DNA from: Nanobdellota archaeon
GTDB lineage: Archaea > Nanobdellota > Nanobdellia > Parvarchaeales > Parvarchaeaceae
Length of the DNA: 64,000 nt
Assembly (NCBI GenBank): GCA_021818905.1
Contig: JAKASS010000003.1
Location: 50,366-114,365 of the forward strand
Direction of reading: 5' to 3'
Shown here: positions 46,297 through 58,666 of the stretch, in pieces
Layout of the letters: each line of letters starts with the position of its first letter
How positions within the stretch are numbered: position 1 is the first letter of the stretch
Position numbers and translations under genes: made by a program
Notes under the pieces: generated by a model
Database searches by the model: none
The model's input: only the letters and a program-made list of their open reading frames with translations
What the model was told of the DNA's origin: nothing

Positions 46297-47703
46297 TTAT
46301 ATAGAACCGTAAACAGAAAATTCAATCGGATTTGGGTAGCTCCCTATTTTCTTTGCTTCCGCGCGTTTTAATCCTAGATAGGTATCTATTACGCTGACAG
46401 GAAAAGCTTTACGCAAGAATTGATTATCGGATTCGAGTTCGTCCAATGCTGTGTTTAAGTCTCCAGGAAGCTCCTTTACTCCGAGCTCATTTCTTTTCTG
46501 CTTACTAAGGTGATAAATATTCTCGTCTATCGGGTCTCCCGGTTCTCTTTTCTTTTCTATGCCGTCTAAAGCCGCTAAAAGTAAAGCTGAAAACGAGAGG
46601 TAAGGGTTTGCGAGCGGGTCCGGAGGCCGGTATTCTATTCTTTTTGTTGCTTCTTGGCCACGATGGTAAGTCGGTATCCTTATTGCCGCGCTTCTGTTTG
46701 ATTTGCTCCAGGCAATGTATACGGGCGCCTCATAACCTGGGACAAGACGCTTGTAGCTGTTGGTCGATGGCGAAACTATAGCTGATAGCGCTCTAGCGTG
46801 TTCCATTAGTCCTCCTACGGCATACCTTCCTAGCTGACTCAATTCAGAGTATTTGTCTCTGGCATCGTACATCAGGTTCTTTTCTTGGGATTCATTCCAA
46901 ATACTAAAATTAGTGTGCATGCCGCTGCCGTTATCGCCAACGAAAGGTTTTGGCATAAATAACGCTAACATGTTATCTCCCTTTGCTATGTTCCTAGCAA
47001 CGAATTTAAGCGTCTGGAATCTATCGGCGGCATCGAGCATTTCAGAATATCTATAGTTAATCTCTGCCTGCCCCGCGGTCGCAACTTCGTGATGCGTCGC
47101 TTCTATTTTGAAGTCAAAATTATTCTTTAGCGTGTTTACGATCTTTAGCCTGGTGCTGTAAGTTTTGTCTAGGGGAGTAACCGGATAGTAACCGCCTTTG
47201 TATGGTATACTAGAAATGCTACCGGAAGCTGGGGCTTCTGATGATTTTATTTTGTACCCTATCCCCGAAGCCGGGTTGTCTATGTCAAGCTCCAAGCCAT
47301 CAAAAAGGAAAAATTCGGATTCTGGTGCAAAGAAAGAAGAATAGCCCTTCCCAGATAAATATCCCTGTGCACGTTCAGCAACATTTCTTGGGTCTCGTTC
47401 AAATCTTTCGGAGCCTGCTTTATAATAAATTTTATTCAAAACCCTCGCTACGCCCTGCGCCCAAGGAAGCATCGTAAGGCTTTCGGGTATCGGCATTAGG
47501 ACCATGTCGCTATCTTGAATGTCTGCAAATCCGACGATGCTGCTGCCGTCTAATTTGGCGAAGCCGGTCTTCATCGTTTTCTCATTAAGCTCGTCTGCTG
47601 GAACCAGAACCTGCCTAAGACTACCGAAAAAGTCTGTAAATTGCAATTCGAGCCAATCCACATTATTTTTAGTAAGAAAGGATTTCACGTTTTTAGAATC
47701 CAT
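46297..47703 (-). CDS. glnA: Glutamine synthetase, type I
   Basis: GlnA makes glutamine from glutamate, ammonia and ATP. 'DWLELQFTDFFGSLRQV' starts the beta-grasp domain. 'GYSSFFAPESEFFLFD' and 'ATHHEVATAGQAEINYR' hold metal-binding Glu residues, and 'MPKPFVGDNGSGMHTNFSIW' and 'NRSAAIRIP' are family signatures. ATG 47703 is preferred over GTG 47712: TTTATATATAAG is centred about 24 nt upstream, fitting a leaderless mRNA. The 3' end is partly copied at 55284. Its product feeds GatCAB encoded nearby. Confidence 0.95.
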   Translation of the reverse strand: MDSKNVKSFLTKNNVDWLELQFTDFFGSLRQVLVPADELNEKTMKTGFAKLDGSSIVGFADIQDSDMVLMPIPESLTMLPWAQGVARVLNKIYYKAGSERFERDPRNVAERAQGYLSGKGYSSFFAPESEFFLFDGLELDIDNPASGIGYKIKSSEAPASGSISSIPYKGGYYPVTPLDKTYSTRLKIVNTLKNNFDFKIEATHHEVATAGQAEINYRYSEMLDAADRFQTLKFVARNIAKGDNMLALFMPKPFVGDNGSGMHTNFSIWNESQEKNLMYDARDKYSELSQLGRYAVGGLMEHARALSAIVSPSTNSYKRLVPGYEAPVYIAWSKSNRSAAIRIPTYHRGQEATKRIEYRPPDPLANPYLSFSALLLAALDGIEKKREPGDPIDENIYHLSKQKRNELGVKELPGDLNTALDELESDNQFLRKAFPVSVIDTYLGLKRAEAKKIGSYPNPIEFSVYGSI

Positions 47704-49526: not shown

Positions 49527-49636
49527 AAGACAAAGAGAACCGCTGTTTATATTTATATTTCGGATTTTCCGGCGCCGGTGTCGCACGGATTAGGCCAAAC
49601 TCCGTAGTTAAACCGCTTGTATCGACAAAAAGTTTA

Positions 49637-49659
49637 TATATGTATGATACATACATATA
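49637..49659. promoter_or_regulatory. Palindromic operator before module 4
   Basis: TATATGTATG-ATA-CATACATATA is a perfect 10-bp inverted repeat with a 3-bp centre, ending 2 nt before ATG 49662. Its position is equivalent to the operator at 21576, but its sequence is different. Confidence 0.7.
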
Positions 49660-49661
49660 AT

Positions 49662-50240
49662 ATGGGAAAATTTAAGCAGACATTACTAACGGAGGAGGCG
49701 TATTCGCAACTTAAAGAAACGAAAGAACTCCTAAGTAAAATCGAAGGTAAGCGAGTCTCGTTCACGGAAGTCATAAAACGCATGGTGAGCAAGCCGCTGG
49801 TTATGCTGAAGCTTGACATAGACATAAAAAATTATATAACTGCATTCGTTGACAGGATAAGTCTCAACAGACACACCTTGGGCGTGGTACTCTTCGGTTC
49901 CGTTGCTAAAAGCACATTCACAAGATTTAGCGATATAGATGTCGCGATCGTAACTGATTCTGACTTCTTAGATTATTTGGACTACCTAAATAAAGAAATA
50001 AAAGAAATAGATCACGAACAGGACAAATTAATCAAGGCCGGGCTCTCGCTTTACATAAGTCCGCTTATAATAACCAAAAAAGACACGCAAAGAATCAACC
50101 CGATATATTTTGATGTATTGGACGACGGCATATTATTGTACCAAAGGGAAAATACCATTTCGGACTTCTTCGGGGCTTTGGCGAAAATAAAGCACAAAAG
50201 AATAAATACGGCGGCTGGGCAGATCTTAAAATGGGGATAG
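49662..50240 (+). CDS. VapB-like domain fused to a minimal nucleotidyltransferase, putative antitoxin of module 4
   Basis: Residues 1-45 ('KQTLLTEEAYSQLKETKELL', 'KRVSFTEVIKRMV') follow the DUF217/VapB pattern. 'GSVAKSTFTRFSDIDVAIV' is the NTase centre, with 'DIDIKNYITAFVDRISL' between them as in module 3. The ATG at 49662 follows a 10-bp palindrome; the upstream GTG-type start at 49617 would lie before it and is rejected. The HEPN gene overlaps its end by 10 nt. Confidence 0.85.
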   Translation: MGKFKQTLLTEEAYSQLKETKELLSKIEGKRVSFTEVIKRMVSKPLVMLKLDIDIKNYITAFVDRISLNRHTLGVVLFGSVAKSTFTRFSDIDVAIVTDSDFLDYLDYLNKEIKEIDHEQDKLIKAGLSLYISPLIITKKDTQRINPIYFDVLDDGILLYQRENTISDFFGALAKIKHKRINTAAGQILKWG

Positions 50241-50650
50241 AAATTTCGAGGGAAGCTATCAAAACTGCGGAAAGCTGGATAAAAACTGCTGAAACGATGC
50301 TTGATAAGAAAGTCTATAATACCGCTCTGTACAGTGAAGAGATGGCTGTAGAGATAGCATTGAAGGCTGTCATGCTGGCGATGGAGATCGAGCCGCCTAA
50401 AGTCCACAATATAACGGAAATCGTGGAGACGAACGTCCTGAATTCTGACAGGTTCCCCCGTAAATACAAGGAAGAGACAAGGGAGATGACCAGGTCATTA
50501 TTGCCAGAGCTTTTACGAAGCAGGCAAATAAGCGGATACACGTTCAATTATAACATAAATCAGAAAGATCTGGAGAAGTTGGCGATAAAATACTTGGAGG
50601 CGGCGCAGACCGCAGTTAAAACGTGCAAAAAGGTTGTCGACTGCCTCTAA
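50231..50650 (+). CDS. HEPN-domain protein, putative toxin of module 4
   Basis: HEPN protein of 139 residues: 'AIKTAESWIKTAETMLDKKV', 'ALYSEEMAVEIALKAVMLAM', 'PPKVHNITEIV' and 'LRSRQISGYTF', whose R-x4-Y is the family's late motif. It is coupled to the preceding antitoxin-NTase by a 10-nt overlap. This is the only one of the four modules on the plus strand. Confidence 0.8.
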   Translation: MGIEISREAIKTAESWIKTAETMLDKKVYNTALYSEEMAVEIALKAVMLAMEIEPPKVHNITEIVETNVLNSDRFPRKYKEETREMTRSLLPELLRSRQISGYTFNYNINQKDLEKLAIKYLEAAQTAVKTCKKVVDCL

Positions 50651-51957: not shown

Positions 51958-53303
51958 ATGGCACCGATATTATATTTGAATCTGTATTTGAATTTCCCTT
52001 CCCAATTTTCGACAAAAGATATGGGCGCATAGTCGTTGAAGTGGTCGCCAACTATCTGCGCGCCAATCGGCATGTCGTCAATATACTCATACGGAAAAGA
52101 AACGTGGGGGAAACCGCATAGATTCGGCGGGATAGTCAACATATCCAAAGCATAAGTTTGCACGGGCGAAAGCTTTTCTACCTCGGATATTTTAGGCGTG
52201 GTTATCGACATAGTAGGAGATATTATGAGACTTTCCCTAAGAATCCTGCGCATCTTTTCGCCAAGCATCGCTCTTACCTTCAATGCCTTGACATAATACC
52301 TGTTCTTGACGCTTGCCCCCCTAACGAACGTCCCTAATATTATCCTTCTCTTGGCTTCCGAACCAAATTGCATCCTGGCTTCTGTAAAGAAATCGTTATA
52401 TCTTTTTGAAAAGTCTCCCACCTTAAAACCATATTTGAAGCCAGTATACCTGGCAAGATTCGTCGAGGCCTCCGCGGTGGATATGATATAATAAGCCGGT
52501 ATGGCCGCTTCTATGTCTTTCAAATCAACATAGTTTATCTTATAATCCATCGACTTGAGCTTTTCCAAAAGCTTATCAAACGCGGACCTTACTTTGTCGT
52601 CCAGACCGTTCATAAGCTGGTTTATCACCGAAAACTGTATTTTTGGTTCGTCTCTCAACCTTGCATCAAGAGAAGTCGTGTCTTTTTCGTCCCTACCAAC
52701 AGACATGTTTAATACTTTTCTTATATCTGCCGCCGATCTTGCCATAAAACCTATCTTGTCCAGAGAATTTGCATAATCTATAAGACCATTCCTTGATACG
52801 ACCCCATAGGTGGGTGTAAATCCGACGACGCCGCAGAACGCTGCGGGTGCGGATATAGAACCGCCCGTGGACTCTGCCACCGCCACATGATATTTTAAGA
52901 TAGAGGTCGCCACTGCCGCTCCGCTACTCGAGCCGCCCGCGACGTAATCGACATTAAAAGGATTTCTAGCCGGGGTCTCGCAATTTATGCCAAAACTCCC
53001 GAAGCCGAATTCGTCCATGTTTGTTTTGCCTAAAAATGCGAAGCCCTGTCTCTGCAATCTTTCCACAACTGTCGCGTTAAACGGTGGCTTGTAAGTCTTT
53101 AGTATTTTTGATGATGCTGTGCTTTCGACTCCCCTTACACAAATATTGTCCTTCACGCTGAAAGGAAAACCATCTCGCAAGTCTTCATTAAGATTGTTAA
53201 ATACGTGTAACTCTCTATTTTTTCCTTTAAGCTCTTCTAAAAGTTTCTGGTAATAGTCCTTGGGTTTGTCTTTTGACTCAAATTCTGAAATATAACTTTT
53301 CAT
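51954..53303 (-). CDS. gatA: Asp-tRNA(Asn)/Glu-tRNA(Gln) amidotransferase subunit A
   Basis: GatA is the amidase-signature subunit that releases ammonia from glutamine. The catalytic Lys is K51 ('FPFSVKDNICVRG'), the Ser pair lies in 'VAGGSSSGAAVATSI' and 'ESTGGSISAPAAFCG'. At 449 residues it is near normal length. The start overlaps the gatC stop (ATGA). Its first 50 codons were copied into the chimeric pseudogene at 55284-55526. Confidence 0.95.
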   Translation of the reverse strand: MKSYISEFESKDKPKDYYQKLLEELKGKNRELHVFNNLNEDLRDGFPFSVKDNICVRGVESTASSKILKTYKPPFNATVVERLQRQGFAFLGKTNMDEFGFGSFGINCETPARNPFNVDYVAGGSSSGAAVATSILKYHVAVAESTGGSISAPAAFCGVVGFTPTYGVVSRNGLIDYANSLDKIGFMARSAADIRKVLNMSVGRDEKDTTSLDARLRDEPKIQFSVINQLMNGLDDKVRSAFDKLLEKLKSMDYKINYVDLKDIEAAIPAYYIISTAEASTNLARYTGFKYGFKVGDFSKRYNDFFTEARMQFGSEAKRRIILGTFVRGASVKNRYYVKALKVRAMLGEKMRRILRESLIISPTMSITTPKISEVEKLSPVQTYALDMLTIPPNLCGFPHVSFPYEYIDDMPIGAQIVGDHFNDYAPISFVENWEGKFKYRFKYNIGAI

Positions 53304-53572
53304 ACTTCTGGTCCTACGACGTACAGGCGATGGGTCTTTGTGTTGTCCAAAAGCTCTTTCTTTTCCTTAAATTCCTTAGGAATGTCCTTTCTCATGATGC
53401 CTGGTATCTCTACTGGATGGTAAGCAGGTTCTACATTTCCGCATTCTACACCGTCGAGTTTATTAAAATAGTTTATAACTTCCTCTAAGTCATTCTTTAT
53501 TGTTTCTGATTCCGTTTCTGTAAGGCCGATCCTTGCGGTTTCTAGCAAAGATTTGAATTCCCGATCATCCAT
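53300..53572 (-). CDS. gatC: Asp-tRNA(Asn)/Glu-tRNA(Gln) amidotransferase subunit C
   Basis: The 90-residue GatC fits the family: 'LLETARIGLTETESETIKND', 'LEEVINYFNKLDGVECGNVE' and the C-terminal 'MRKDIP'. GatC wraps around GatA and stabilises the complex. It is first in the gatCAB operon. A close paralog lies at 55523. Confidence 0.9.
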   Translation of the reverse strand: MDDREFKSLLETARIGLTETESETIKNDLEEVINYFNKLDGVECGNVEPAYHPVEIPGIMRKDIPKEFKEKKELLDNTKTHRLYVVGPEV

Positions 53573-53709
53573 AAATTAGAAACTAGTTTTATCCTTATAA
53601 CCATTAATCTGATTATTTGACGGTAGGTTTAGCCGTTTCAGAATTTAAATGAAGAGAACGCTGAGAGGCCGAGGGCTGCTAAATAGTGCGGCCGTCTTTA
53701 TCCCGACGT

Positions 53710-55026
53710 TTAAACGTCAAGGAGCCACTTCCACAATGGGATGAACCTTATCTTCTTGCCTTTTACCTTTTCCTCGGCTTCGTAGTCCCAGGTTATGACA
53801 TGACCGATATCTAACTTATAAAAATCCATTGCGGCAAGGAGAGCGCTTTTTTCTCTCTCTTTTGTAGGGCTATCCGAAACCGTGTATGCACATTGTATCA
53901 GTTTTTCTACTTTATTCCCGTCAGTCACGACAAAATCGACTTCTTTCCCGCTTAGATCTTTCCAAAATCCTACGGTAATCGTAGCTTTTTCCTCCTTTCT
54001 TCTTAATAATTCTATATAAACTAAATTTTCTAATAGCCTGCCTTTTTGCATGTCGGAATTGAAAAGCGTCGCCATCCCGGTGTCGACAATGTATAATTTT
54101 TTGTGGGTCTGGGGCCTCTTTTTTATGCTTCTGGAGTAAGGGAATAATTGATAGAGTAAAAACACTTCCTGTGCGTATTTTATAAAGCTATTTATCGTCT
54201 TCTTACTTGCGTTCACGTCGATAGTCTTGAAAAAATTGTTTATTTTTGTGACGCTGAATTGCTGAGAAAAGCTCCCTATCGAATAGCGGATAGTCTTGTC
54301 GAGGAGGTCTACGTCTCTTATCTTGAACCTCTTTATTATGTCTCTAAAAAATATCGCATTGTAGTATTCAGAGAGGATCTTTATCTTTTTATTTACGTCC
54401 TCCTCCTCGGATACTTCGGGGAACCCGCCGTACACTAGATATTCATCTAAAAGCCCGAGTATGGCCGCTAGTTTTTTCTGTGAATATATCGTCGTTTTAT
54501 CGAGTGCGAAAGCTTTCGCTAGAATGAACTCCCGAAATGAAAAGGGGTAGACTATGTAAGTCAAGTTTCTGCCGCTAAGCGAGGTGGATATTTCCGCACT
54601 TAAGAACTTAGAACTTGAGCCCGTAACGAATATATTATATTTTCCGCTATCATACATCCGCCTTATCCACTTCTCCCAGCCGTCCACGTTTTGTATCTCG
54701 TCGACGAACAGCCATATCTTGTCTTTTTTGGCTCCATACAACTCATAATACGCGCCGGTCAAGTCTTCGAGGTCGCCTGCAGATATACTTCCAAGCCTCT
54801 CATCCTCAAAATTTATATAGATTATCGATTTTTTGTCTATGTTTTCATTTACGATTAGATCATTTATTGTCGAGAACAGCAGGTAGGTTTTACCAGAGCG
54901 TCTCACTCCCGTTACCACCACGATTTTCTTGCCGCTTACATCTAGTTTTAATTCCCTGCCGATCATTTCGGGTAGTTTTCTCTCCGACCATTCTACCAAA
55001 AGCTTCTTGAAGATTTCCTTTTTCAT
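53710..55026 (-). CDS. AAA ATPase with DUF4143 domain, copy 1
   Basis: Walker A 'GVRRSGKTYLL', Walker B 'KIWLFVDEIQNVDGWEKWIR' and 'IFVTGSSSKFLSAEISTSLS' belong to the AAA_14 family. 'FSFREFILAKAF' and 'LVYGGFPEVSEE' lead into DUF4143. The C-terminal nuclease-like fold has 'KEVDFVV', but the expected E-x-K strand reads 'LIQCAY', so it is probably not a nuclease. It ends with 'YEAEEKVKGKKIRFIPLWKW', shared almost exactly with copy 3. ATG 55026 is chosen because TATA and two palindromes lie immediately upstream. The cellular role of these ATPases is unknown; defence, mobile-element or partner-binding roles are possible. Confidence 0.83.
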   Translation of the reverse strand: MKKEIFKKLLVEWSERKLPEMIGRELKLDVSGKKIVVVTGVRRSGKTYLLFSTINDLIVNENIDKKSIIYINFEDERLGSISAGDLEDLTGAYYELYGAKKDKIWLFVDEIQNVDGWEKWIRRMYDSGKYNIFVTGSSSKFLSAEISTSLSGRNLTYIVYPFSFREFILAKAFALDKTTIYSQKKLAAILGLLDEYLVYGGFPEVSEEEDVNKKIKILSEYYNAIFFRDIIKRFKIRDVDLLDKTIRYSIGSFSQQFSVTKINNFFKTIDVNASKKTINSFIKYAQEVFLLYQLFPYSRSIKKRPQTHKKLYIVDTGMATLFNSDMQKGRLLENLVYIELLRRKEEKATITVGFWKDLSGKEVDFVVTDGNKVEKLIQCAYTVSDSPTKEREKSALLAAMDFYKLDIGHVITWDYEAEEKVKGKKIRFIPLWKWLLDV

Positions 55027-55075
55027 GTTTTCTATAGGAAACGTAAATATATAAATCTTGTTTCTTATAAGAAAC
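55027..55075. promoter_or_regulatory. Twin palindromic operators around the TATA box of AAA ATPase copy 1
   Basis: GTTTTCTATAGGAAAC (55027-55042, one mismatch between arms) and GTTTCTTATAAGAAAC (55060-55075, perfect) flank the TATA element at 55044-55056. Both are followed by GTAA, and their centres are 33 bp apart. The first abuts the start codon. Confidence 0.75.
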
Positions 55076-55283
55076 GTAATTATGGCGATGATTTGACCGG
55101 TCAAGGCGACGTCGATCGGACATCTGTCGCTACACTGCTGTTATCGTCGCCTGGATGGTCGTAATGGCTTGGGTACCTTTAGAGCAAGCGGACCTGCCCA
55201 TATGTCGTCATTTACTCCAAGGCTGACTGAAATCTGTTGATCGTGCTTTGAATCAAGTATCTGACGATGATAATAAGTTTAGT

Positions 55284-55526
55284 TTATATGGAACCGTAAA
55301 CAGAAAATTCGATCGGATTGGGATAACTTCCTATTTTCTTTGCCTCTGCGCGTTTTAGTCCTAGATAGGTATCTATTACGCTGAATGGAAAACCTTCGTG
55401 TAACTCTTCATTAAAATTGTTGAAAGCGTGGAGCTCTTTGTTCTTTTCCCTAAGTTCTTCTAAAAGCTTCTGATAATAATCCTTTGGCTTCTATTTTGCC
55501 TCGAATTCGGATATTAGACTTTTCAT
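55284..55526 (-). pseudogene. Chimeric pseudogene: gatA N-terminus joined in frame to glnA C-terminus
   Basis: Codons 1-48 match gatA ('MKSLISEFEAK' then 'KPKDYYQKLLEELREKNKEL'), and codons 49-80 match the glnA C-terminus ('SVIDTYLGLKRAEAKKIGSY', 'PNPIEFSVYGSI'). Codon 12 is TAG where gatA has Asp. The junction lies at a short stretch similar in both parents (ACGCTGA-A/C-AGGAAAA). It overlaps the end of gatC copy 2 by 4 nt, exactly as gatA overlaps gatC. The spacer 55105-55283 shows nothing I recognise. Confidence 0.88.
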
Positions 55527-55795
55527 ACTTCCGGCCCGATGACATAGGAACGATGGGTCTTTGTGTTGTCTAAAAGTCTTTTCTTCTCTTTGAAATCTTC
55601 TGGCGTGTCTTCCCTCATCATGCCGGATATCTCCACGGAGTGATAGGCGGGTCCTACGTTCCCGCATTCGATATCGTCCAATCTGTTAAAATAGACTATG
55701 ACCTCCTCTAGGTCTTTCTTTATCTCTTCTGATTCGGCTTCCGTAAGGCTTATCCTCGCGGTTTCCAGCAACGATTTAAATTCTTTATCGTGCAT
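55523..55795 (-). CDS. Second copy of GatC
   Basis: The 90 residues are collinear with gatC at 53300 ('LLETARISLTEAESEEIKKD', 'IECGNVGPAYHSVEISGMMR', 'KTHRSYVIGPEV'), with about four-fifths identity and no frameshift or stop. It came with the duplicated gatC-gatA block, but its gatA partner is the dead chimera at 55284. It may still be translated and compete with or back up GatC, or be at an early stage of decay. Confidence 0.8.
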   Translation of the reverse strand: MHDKEFKSLLETARISLTEAESEEIKKDLEEVIVYFNRLDDIECGNVGPAYHSVEISGMMREDTPEDFKEKKRLLDNTKTHRSYVIGPEV

Positions 55796-55809
55796 AATTT
55801 ATGCTCGAA

Positions 55810-57063
55810 TCATTTTAAATCCAGCAGCCACTTCCATAGGGGAATCAACTTTATCCTGCCGCAGTCTACCTTCTCTTCAAGTTCGTCTTTTTTTGTTATG
55901 ATAACGCCTTCTTTTTTACCGAATCTTTTCATGAATTCTTCTACTGGCTTTAGATCGTTTTTATCGATTCGCTCCCGGTATTTGACTTCTATCGGGACAT
56001 CCTCGTAGACCATGTCTACCTCATTTGAATTTTTCCAGAAAGCCGAGGCTTTTGCCTTGTTTATCACTGCGGACTCTACCATCCTGCCGAAGAACGTGTC
56101 GTCTATATTCTGTTTGTATAAGTAAGTTATCGCATTATCTGTAGGATATGCCCTTTTTCTTTTTCTTAACGTAGCTGCATTACCTTTTCTGTAATTGCCA
56201 AGCATAGAAATCAAAAAGCTCTCCTGAAGATAGGAGATGTAATCTTTTATGACTCTTCTATCCTTTCCAAATTGCCTGCTTAGAGACTGATAATCCACGT
56301 ACATGCCGGGGTTTGTAGCTATTAATTCGAGGAGGGTCTTGAGAAATCCTGGATCGTCTATTTTAGAAATCTTCGGGATATCGCGGTATATTATTCTGTC
56401 GATCACTAATGCCCCTATATATTCCCTGAACTCAGTGTCGTTTTTAAGAGAGAAGGTTTCCGGGAACCCCCCCATGCGCACGAACTTCACGAGGAGTGGC
56501 CTAAGTACGGTTTCGTAAGGCGTCTTTTCTTTAATGTTATTGAATTTTAGGTATTCTTTAAACGAAAAAGTCCTTAAAATAAACTGGAAAACCCTGCCGG
56601 CAAGGGTCTCTTTGGTCTTCTTTTTTATGAACAGCGATTCCGAACCACTTATAATGAATTTAAGTTTCGGATATAAGTCGTAGTATTTCTTGACCTCGTT
56701 TTCCCAATTTTCGCTTTTCTGGATCTCATCAAGGAATATATAAACGCGTCTGGCTCTTAGGTCCTTGCCGTGAATATCATTATACGCATTTATTATGTCG
56801 CCGAGACCCCCCGAGGTTTCATCAAAGGAGAAAAAGAGCACGTCCGTCGGATCCGCCCTTTCACTGATAAGCTTTTGTATCAGTTGATATATCACCGTGG
56901 TTTTGCCTGTCCTTCTTAGCCCTACGAGCGCGATGATAAATCTGTCCGCCATGTGCTCTAAGACGTCATAATAGCAATCTCTTTTGAACGACAGTGCTAG
57001 ATCGGGATCGACTTTCCCGCTCAGCCACCAATGATTGAATTCTTCGATTACGGCTCTTTCCAT
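55810..57063 (-). CDS. AAA ATPase with DUF4143-like nuclease-fold domain, copy 2
   Basis: Walker A 'GLRRTGKTTVIYQL', Walker B 'RVYIFLDEIQKSENWENEVK', 'FIISGSESLFIKKKTKETLA' and 'FSFKEYLKF' mark the same AAA family. The C-terminal domain has 'NEVDMVYEDVPIEVKYRERI', with an intact D ... E-x-K pattern, so this copy could retain nuclease chemistry, unlike copies 1 and 3. It ends 'IKLIPLWKWLLDLK'. ATG 57063 is chosen over the frame up to 57177, since TATA and two palindromes lie directly before it. It lies 14 nt upstream of gatC copy 2. Confidence 0.83.
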   Translation of the reverse strand: MERAVIEEFNHWWLSGKVDPDLALSFKRDCYYDVLEHMADRFIIALVGLRRTGKTTVIYQLIQKLISERADPTDVLFFSFDETSGGLGDIINAYNDIHGKDLRARRVYIFLDEIQKSENWENEVKKYYDLYPKLKFIISGSESLFIKKKTKETLAGRVFQFILRTFSFKEYLKFNNIKEKTPYETVLRPLLVKFVRMGGFPETFSLKNDTEFREYIGALVIDRIIYRDIPKISKIDDPGFLKTLLELIATNPGMYVDYQSLSRQFGKDRRVIKDYISYLQESFLISMLGNYRKGNAATLRKRKRAYPTDNAITYLYKQNIDDTFFGRMVESAVINKAKASAFWKNSNEVDMVYEDVPIEVKYRERIDKNDLKPVEEFMKRFGKKEGVIITKKDELEEKVDCGRIKLIPLWKWLLDLK

Positions 57064-57064
57064 A

Positions 57065-57114
57065 TGTACATCAGGATGTATATGTTTATATATATTACGT
57101 ACATCGCGATGTAC
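57065..57114. promoter_or_regulatory. Twin palindromic operators around the TATA box of AAA ATPase copy 2
   Basis: TGTACATC-AG-GATGTATA (57065-57082, one mismatch between arms) and GTACATCGCGATGTAC (57099-57114, perfect) flank the TATA element at 57085-57097. Centres are 33 bp apart and the first site begins 1 nt before the start codon. This is the same layout as for copy 1, with an unrelated sequence. Confidence 0.75.
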
Positions 57115-57245
57115 ATGAAAAAGTGGGAAATTTTCCCGCTTTTCTAAATTATTGGTGCCGAAAGAAGCTTTTATCACTTTGCGTACTAAGTTAACTTTCT
57201 TTCTGGGAGAATATCTTTATCGCGATAAAGAAAAATGCCAAAGAT

Positions 57246-57400
57246 ATGAAGAGGACGCCGAGAGTCCGAGGACGACTAGACAGTGCGGCCGGTTTTATCC
57301 CGGCGTTTAAACGTCAAGGAGCCACTTCCACAAGGGAACGAACCTTATCTTCTTTCCCTTGACCTTTTCCTCGGCTTCGTAGTCCCAGGTTATCACGAGA
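57246..57400 (-). repeat. Repeat covering the 3' end and downstream flank of ATPase copies 1 and 3
   Basis: This segment aligns with 53649-53804 at high identity. The match covers the last 30 or so codons and about 60 bp beyond the stop codon (TAAACGTCAAGGAGCCACTT region). Upstream of it the two genes diverge strongly. The rest of 57178-57306 has no gene. Confidence 0.75.
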
Positions 57401-58587
57401 AGGTTGTCGCAACGTAACTCTTTAGAGGCCCCAATAAGATTGTTTATTTCTCTATCGTTTATGTACCGTCTATCCGACGCATATGTAACTTGGATCAACT
57501 CTGTGATTTTACTCCCGTTCTTTAACGCGAAATCGACTTCTCTTTGTTGGTGGTCTTTCCAATAGAATATGCCATATGCATTTATGCCGATTTTTGATGT
57601 TCTTCTGGATAATTCTACCGCAACTGCATTTTCCATAAGGATGCCCTTCCTCTCACTAAGGGTCGGGCTCATGTAAACTGAGAGCCCCGTGTCTATGGAA
57701 TAGATTTTTTTAGGGGCGAACACCGCTTCCTTTAATTTAAAAGAAAACCTTGTTAGCTTCAAAAATAGGTACGCTTCTTCTAGATATCCGACCCATTTGG
57801 ATATAGTTATCTTGTGTTTGACCCCAGTCAATTTTATTAGGGAGGAATAACTAAATTCCTTTGAGATGTTGGCCATCAAAAACGCGGCTACCGCTTTCAA
57901 ATCCTCTTCATTTTTTACCTTATGGCGCTTTATTACATCCTTCGTTATTATGTCATTGTAAATCGATTTTAAAAAATCTTTTCCAAATTTTAGGACTTCT
58001 GGAAATCCGCCTTCATTTAGATATGTATGCAATGCCACACCTACTCTGGCCCGCTCTGCGGTAGTCAATGCGCCGAGATATTTGGTCCCCATGTATCCCA
58101 GATACTCTCTGAAACTAAACGGAAAAAGGATGAAATCTAGATGCCTGCCAGTCAAAGACGTAGCTAATTCTCCGCTCAAAAGTGCGGAGTTGGAACCGGT
58201 CACAATCACTTTTTTTGTGTCTCTCAGCCTACTAACGAATTTTTCCCAACCGTATACCTCCTGTATTTCATCGAGTACTATATTTTCTATATCGTCACCA
58301 TAAAGTTCATAAAATGCCTGCAAAACTTTGTTTAAATCAGAAGTTTCGAGTTTTATCAATCTATCATCATCGAAATTTATGTATCCGGATTTTTTGCCTC
58401 TAAAAAGTTCCTCAGAGAGTGTTGATTTTCCGCATCTACGTATACCGAGTATGATGATCGCGTTTGGATGAGAAAGATATTTTTCTATTTTTATATCCTC
58501 TCTATTTATTATCTTTTCTTTCTTAAACTTCTCTTCAAGCTGTGCTCTTTGATCGATTATTACCTGCTTTAGTTGCTCAATGTCCAT
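57307..58587 (-). CDS. AAA ATPase with DUF4143 domain, copy 3
   Basis: Walker A 'GIRRCGKSTLSEEL', Walker B 'IENIVLDEIQEVYGWEKFVS' and 'VIVTGSNSALLSGELATSLT' with 'FPFSFREYLGY' mark the family; 'LNEGGFPEVLKF' precedes DUF4143. In the C-terminal fold 'REVDFALKNGSKITELIQVT' lacks the E-x-K strand (IQV instead), as in copy 1. It ends 'WDYEAEEKVKGKKIRFVPLW', nearly identical to copy 1. A TATA element (TTTTTATATGC, complement of 58607-58617) is centred 24 nt before ATG 58587. Confidence 0.83.
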   Translation of the reverse strand: MDIEQLKQVIIDQRAQLEEKFKKEKIINREDIKIEKYLSHPNAIIILGIRRCGKSTLSEELFRGKKSGYINFDDDRLIKLETSDLNKVLQAFYELYGDDIENIVLDEIQEVYGWEKFVSRLRDTKKVIVTGSNSALLSGELATSLTGRHLDFILFPFSFREYLGYMGTKYLGALTTAERARVGVALHTYLNEGGFPEVLKFGKDFLKSIYNDIITKDVIKRHKVKNEEDLKAVAAFLMANISKEFSYSSLIKLTGVKHKITISKWVGYLEEAYLFLKLTRFSFKLKEAVFAPKKIYSIDTGLSVYMSPTLSERKGILMENAVAVELSRRTSKIGINAYGIFYWKDHQQREVDFALKNGSKITELIQVTYASDRRYINDREINNLIGASKELRCDNLLVITWDYEAEEKVKGKKIRFVPLWKWLLDV

Positions 58588-58611: not shown

Positions 58612-58666
58612 AAAAAGCTTTCTATTAAGAATAGAAAGCTTTTATAAAAAGCTTTCTATTAAGAAT
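58612..58666. promoter_or_regulatory. Inverted and direct repeats between ATPase copy 3 and a divergent small ORF
   Basis: AAAAGCTTTCTAT (58613-58625) and its exact complement at 58631-58643 form a 13-bp inverted repeat with a 5-bp spacer. A 21-bp unit starting at 58612 is repeated at 58646, a 34-bp period. A TATA-like TTTATAAAAA at 58641-58650 faces the plus strand. The site could control both directions. Confidence 0.65.

Follow-up and report, generated by a model that had tools for sequence, protein, structure and literature searches.

Pairs of short palindromic sites with a fixed spacing mark the promoters of three adjacent ATPase genes, w1, w2 and w3, which occupy positions 53710–58587 of a 64,000-nucleotide stretch of contig JAKASS010000003.1 of a Nanobdellota archaeon (the window). 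All three genes lie on the minus strand, encode AAA_14-DUF4143 ATPases as judged by Pfam, and belong by profile to the candidate defence system PDC-S01. The sites resemble operators. Their spacing, conservation and rarity suggest that each ATPase quite probably binds the operators of its own gene and thereby controls its own expression, repression being likelier than activation.

At w1 and w2, the initial annotation had read the order start codon, palindrome, TATA box, palindrome, with centres 33 bp apart. We reproduced its coordinates exactly: the site centres fall at 55034.5/55067.5 (w1) and 57073.5/57106.5 (w2), in each case with the TATA box in between. The start-side member of either pair is imperfect, with three mismatches relative to its perfect partner. 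The 13-bp inverted repeat (58613–58625/58631–58643) and the 21-bp direct repeat with a period of 34 bp (58612–58632/58646–58666) reported at w3 were likewise located as described. GTTTCTTATAAGAAAC and GTACATCGCGATGTAC each occur twice within the window at three or fewer mismatches, always at their own promoter (Table 1). In w1–w3 the start codon lies about 27–29 bp past the TATA box, and the transcripts are therefore probably leaderless; hence the putative operators would sit in promoter DNA, outside the mRNA.

Table 1. ATPase genes, TATA boxes and putative operators in the window
Feature	Position	Strand	Remarks
w1 ATPase gene	53710..55026	-	438 aa; AAA_14 + winged helix-turn-helix (HTH) + PD-(D/E)XK-like (DUF4143); PDC-S01
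w1 start-side operator GTTTCCTATAGAAAAC (- strand)	55027..55042	.	immediately before ATG; conserved in two orthologues
w1 TATA box TTTATATA	55048..55055	-	about 29 bp before ATG
w1 upstream operator GTTTCTTATAAGAAAC	55060..55075	.	perfect palindrome, 33 bp from start-side site; one exact genome copy
w2 AAA_14-DUF4143 ATPase gene	55810..57063	-	417 aa; PDC-S01
w2 start-side operator GTACATCAGGATGTAT	57066..57081	.	
w2 TATA box region TATATATAAA	57085..57094	-	
w2 upstream operator GTACATCGCGATGTAC	57099..57114	.	perfect palindrome, 33 bp from start-side site
w3 AAA_14-DUF4143 ATPase gene	57307..58587	-	426 aa; PDC-S01
w3 proximal operator AAAAGCTTTCTAT-TAAGA-ATAGAAAGCTTTT	58612..58643	.	inverted repeat, abuts and overlaps TATA box
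w3 distal operator, second copy of AAAAAGCTTTCTATTAAGAAT	58646..58666	.	34 bp upstream

The initial annotation had proposed searching for inverted repeats near the TATA box upstream of DUF4143 ATPase genes in relatives, and the 32–33-bp spacing indeed recurs phylum-wide. After removal of near-duplicate promoters, and with shuffles that preserve dinucleotide content, direct repeats upstream of the ATPase genes of the genus peaked at 33 bp (z 6.7) and 32 bp (z 5.1), the exact z values here and below being generous because promoters were treated as independent and deeper relatedness was not modelled. For 70 promoters from other families, the peaks were again at 33 bp (z 9.2) and 32 bp (z 7.7), with no other spacing exceeding 2.6. 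The spacing prediction was written down before it was tested on 59 new promoters, which gave peaks at 33 bp (z 7.3) and 32 bp (z 6.1) and an extra one, about one helical turn shorter, at 23 bp (z 4.5). Eight of the 23 significant repeats in this replication set were spaced 23 bp instead of 33. Control promoters, 161 TATA promoters all taken from the window's own genome, showed no spacing peak (maximum z at any spacing, 2.4).

A repeat matching at 13 or more of 16 positions and spaced 32–34 bp was present in 45 of 152 promoters and in none of the 161 controls. Chance similarity around TATA boxes, which the A+T content of the promoters (about 75%) and the partly palindromic nature of TATA boxes would favour, is very hard to reconcile with controls chosen by the same rule, with the shuffles and with the replication in a new set. 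It is refuted for the family as a whole and may still hold for single weak promoters. The layout varies among the 45 clear cases. The flanking of the TATA box first described, as at w1 and w2, holds for 19 of the 45; in the other 26 both sites lie upstream, which is also the layout of w3, and the nearer one usually abuts the TATA box. Some subfamilies (loci L165–L171, L255, L258, L293 and L294) appear to have their dyad, such as TTTGTATTATCCAAAATACAAA, on the downstream side of the TATA box. Outside DPANN, one Methanoregulaceae promoter has a 33-bp repeat and one Thermoplasmatota promoter a 32-bp repeat, neither of which was reached in any of 300 shuffles, and several promoters of bacterial homologues contain strong dyads, others none. 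An extension of the spacing rule beyond DPANN is a lead only, coming as it does from single promoters.

We analyzed orthologues and paralogues in a set of 59 genes from the genus and a few related genomes; the named relatives retrieved with w1 were metagenome-assembled genomes labelled Nanoarchaeota or Candidatus Parvarchaeota archaeon. Nearly all 59 genes have a TATA box about 27–30 bp before the start codon, as in leaderless transcripts; start codons were picked partly by a TATA-distance rule, and control promoters by the identical rule. Scores for dyads, paired dyads and four half-sites were all above those of the 161 controls (Mann-Whitney p 1e-9 to 5e-15). Inspection by eye together with clustering showed that each orthologue group has sites of its own (TGTATCAGTTACTGATACA, TGCTCTAACAGAGCA, GTATCTTATRTGATAC, ACATTRTAATGT, TTCGTA-N9-TACGAA, and half-sites GGGTAA and TTACCC that flank the TATA box). 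Operators are thus unlike between paralogues and conserved between orthologues. For w1, identity between orthologues is 81% at positions -55 to -31 and 89% at -30 to -1, and falls to 30% further upstream; when seven orthologue groups were compared, conservation was always higher in the proximal region, by a clear margin in five groups and by a smaller one in two. The absence of paired palindromes from close relatives had been named in the initial annotation as an argument against the idea; instead, orthologues retain the sites while flanking DNA diverges.

The second argument that it had envisaged, random occurrence of the palindromes elsewhere in the genome, was addressed by scanning all contigs (944,665 bp in 25 contigs), which together hold 13 PDC-S01-type gene copies. 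We searched for two 16-bp palindromes, each with at least six of eight pairs matched and a sum of at least 13, that were identical at 12 of 16 positions, allowing every spacing from 17 to 79 bp. Only five such pairs exist genome-wide: three are the w1–w3 promoters, and the sole pairs spaced 33 bp are those of w1 and w2. Most of the scanned operators of the 13 family genes have one or nearly one occurrence in the genome, and GTACATCGCGATGTAC has no further copy in it at two or fewer mismatches; overall, the site types are near-unique. A site in a gene's own promoter, common to orthologues and rare elsewhere, is the pattern expected of autoregulatory DNA-binding proteins.

One of the two remaining palindrome pairs (C6:8811, locus L051), of the ATAGTTAACTAT type and with a spacing of 45 bp, adjoins a gene predicted to encode a DNA methylase and may mark an autoregulated promoter unrelated to the ATPases. 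Extra near-perfect operator copies were examined at C22:40556, C15:10317 and C23:2637. The first precedes the still recognisable start of an apparent w1-like pseudogene; the other two look like promoters left by lost ATPase genes. The region C23:2560–2760 (locus L141) carries the operator of the ATPase gene at C22:42258 in an identical copy, with no ATPase gene attached, just upstream of a nucleotidyltransferase/HEPN-like pair, another of which lies in the window (see below).

Which protein reads the sites? The operators look like ordinary dimeric-repressor sites, and the DNA alone names no binder, so separate dedicated repressors encoded elsewhere, one per operator, might be considered. We give this little credence: with operators that differ between paralogues, about ten unlinked dedicated repressors would be needed in a 0.94-Mb genome, and ATPase gene and operator move together from locus to locus and from genome to genome. 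Moreover, among the neighbouring open reading frames (ORFs) of about 100 loci we found no recurrent gene that could be a linked regulator. A type II toxin-antitoxin operon was rejected, as no small antitoxin ORF recurs at these loci. Because the operators differ between paralogues and move with a gene that has no recurrent neighbour, the ATPase itself is the economical candidate for the binder. Per-column mutual information revealed no overwhelming residue/site pair, and a 32-row alignment contained no conserved stretch usable for a profile search of the genome contigs.

The proteins offer a plausible DNA-binding module. Pfam matches in w1 are strong (AAA_14, E=4.9e-38; DUF4143, E=2e-26), and PDC-S01 profiles of PADLOC match w1, w2 and w3 over nearly their full length (E=2.6e-112, 4.3e-62 and 1.1e-100, respectively); in all three, AAA_14 followed by DUF4143 spans most of the protein, as is typical of PDC-S01. 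Pfam domain searches recognised no sensor domain in w1, w2 or w3. An AlphaFold2 model of w1 (predicted local distance difference test score 89.9) shows an AAA+ core, a winged HTH at about residues 239–294 and a C-terminal alpha/beta domain with the order of elements of a PD-(D/E)XK nuclease. While phmmer against PDB sequences gave no match at E 0.01, a fold search, which covered almost only residues 5–326, placed SSO1545 (2fna; Z 16.6, root-mean-square deviation 4.1 over 271 residues) and PABY2304 (2qen; Z 16.6, 4.5 over 272) nearest, followed by ORC/Cdc6 and apoptosome-type ATPases. In the model, the succession of AAA+ core and winged HTH places w1 with STAND/ORC-like ATPases.

The same kinship lends itself to the main alternative, in which the ATPase binds its own operators but activates the promoter, as the STAND regulators MalT and IniR do at their targets. 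IniR, whose ATPase domain resembles SSO1545, reportedly binds the iniBAC promoter and activates it (PMC5760070), and both sites lie upstream of the TATA box in the 26 cases noted above. In the other 19, one site falls between TATA box and start codon; occupied by protein, it should interfere with the TATA-binding protein (TBP) and transcription factor B (TFB) or with RNA polymerase. We therefore regard activation as unlikely, and autorepression as the simplest reading of the promoter layouts.

Sites with no role in transcription, serving as recognition or cleavage sites of the nuclease domain or as gene-mobility ends (homing- or transposon-like), seem improbable to us. The PD-(D/E)XK-like domain of the model would fit such a role, as would the turnover, relic promoters and 3'-end exchange seen in the family. 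Across many unrelated genomes, however, the sites keep a fixed position relative to the start codon and the TATA box. The D..ExK nuclease motif is intact in w2 (EVDMVYEDVPIEVKYRE), but w1 has Q-x-A and w3 Q-x-T at the E-x-K position, and a rough motif count indicates Q-x-T or similar in many genus copies; nuclease activity may therefore be absent or altered in these proteins. Cleavage may thus be lost where the operators persist. Mobility of the ATPase gene by terminal repeats was rejected, since the genome-wide operator scan found no matching site at the 3' ends of w1–w3.

Autoregulation by the ATPase itself has to be weighed against several observations that count against it. Its support comes from sequence comparison and a structure model. 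A clear 32–34-bp repeat exists in only about a third of the promoters; the remainder show one dyad only, half-sites on either side of the TATA box, repeats at different spacings or no recognisable site, and the upstream-only layout would suit an activator too. In favour of the ATPase as binder, the presence of an acidic residue where the recognition helix begins covaries with CG/GG in the half-site (p=0.017 in the first set and p=0.0008 in the new set, with 60% clustering), but this rule was framed after the new set had been inspected, which makes the replication weaker than a blind one. Of the rules written beforehand, H/N with GCA/ACA was strong in the first set and not significant in the new one (p=0.11, 60% clustering), and Q/S/T/I with TAGA was lost after clustering (p=0.7). 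Nearest-neighbour tests showed that operator similarity tracks the protein, about equally for AAA and HTH domains and less for the nuclease domain, and so do not single out the HTH from the ATPase domain; at AAA identity below 50% the HTH predicted the operator better than the nuclease domain did. Mantel-type tests of operator similarity against domain identity gave weak correlations, again without singling out the HTH.

The mechanism that we infer, from the identity of the binder, its dimerization and cooperativity to repression and the role in defence, would run as follows. An AAA_14-DUF4143 ATPase of PDC-S01 would bind DNA to regulate the gene that encodes it, recognising a short private palindrome through its central winged HTH and probably acting as a dimer. 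Two sites 32–34 bp apart, about three helical turns, would put two dimers next to each other on the same face of the helix. Beside or flanking the TFB recognition element (BRE)/TATA element, these dimers would exclude TBP and TFB and keep expression low, so that the operator would control a costly defence effector. With a different palindrome for each paralogue, regulation of the 13 copies could be independent, and gene and operator would move, diverge and decay as one unit.

The surroundings of the three genes carry traces of rearrangement. Between w1 and w2 (55284–55540 and 55523–55795) lies a second gatC (75% DNA identity to the gatC at 53300–53572). After it come the first ~50 codons of an additional gatA copy, interrupted by a TAG. 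This gatA piece is joined to a fragment that shares 89% identity with the final 113 bp of glnA in the window (46297–46409), and by sequence comparison the intergenic region is a mosaic of duplicated gene pieces. The 3' ends of w1 and w3 (53648–53798 versus 57246–57396; the last ~30 codons plus up to ~70 bp downstream) are 88% identical to each other and about 87–91% identical to those of copies on C22, C16, C19 and C15, the whole proteins being far more divergent. Gene conversion or a shared downstream element may explain the common ends. At 49617–50650 (plus strand) there is a nucleotidyltransferase/HEPN gene pair composed as in the candidate PDC-M05; in PADLOC, the first gene gave weak PDC-S09 and PDC-M05A matches, the second none.

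According to PMC12988326, PDC-S01 joins an ATPase to a domain of the PD-(D/E)XK superfamily and, with 9,986 archaeal and 29,494 bacterial systems, ranks fourth by frequency among (candidate) defences in prokaryotes, most PDCs still awaiting validation. In PADLOC it is a phage defence candidate that combines AAA_14 (PF13173) and DUF4143 (PF13635). The available part of PMC12988326 contains no mention of regulation, an operator or DNA-binding specificity for it, and we found no biochemical function in the searchable literature, which leaves out most subscription papers. The fixed-spacing putative operators and the proposed autoregulation would be new for PDC-S01. By description, arCOG03166, an 'AAA+ superfamily ATPase fused to HTH and RecB nuclease domains, likely involved in defense' (PMC4158269), has the domain order and suspected role of the window genes; its table entry there gives no promoter feature.

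MalT and IniR likewise join an SSO1545-like ATPase module to a DNA-binding domain that acts on a promoter (PMC5760070). IniR, however, carries a sensor of the MalT type and ends in an SdiA-like domain, and its activation target is a different operon, whereas in the window ATPases the HTH directly follows the ATPase, the nuclease-like domain comes last and the presumed target is the protein's own gene. Archaeal Cdc6/Orc1 proteins, solved on DNA (2qby, 2v1u), share the order of AAA+ and winged HTH. They differ in binding origins and in having no PD-(D/E)XK domain; the window sites lie at the TATA boxes of the genes' own promoters. With defence-linked repressors such as BrxR and CapW, dimeric sites overlap the promoter and keep the defence gene low, and the repressor is a separate protein; in the window family, the putative effector itself would be the repressor.

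More speculatively, and with considerable doubt, each gene could be a one-gene, self-monitoring immune device in which the protein occupies its own promoter. Once displaced, either because foreign DNA with similar sites titrates it away or because infection alters its ATP state, it would let expression rise and would itself, nuclease domain included, be free to act. If so, evolving new operator/HTH pairs would let a genome maintain many copies without cross-reaction. With its conserved, gene-specific operator, each protein has a defined candidate DNA ligand, a first experimental handle on a poorly understood family; binding, ATP dependence, oligomeric state and the sign of control thereby become testable. 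Well over a hundred natural protein/operator pairs may also serve the study of a recognition code and of how paralogous regulators are insulated from one another.

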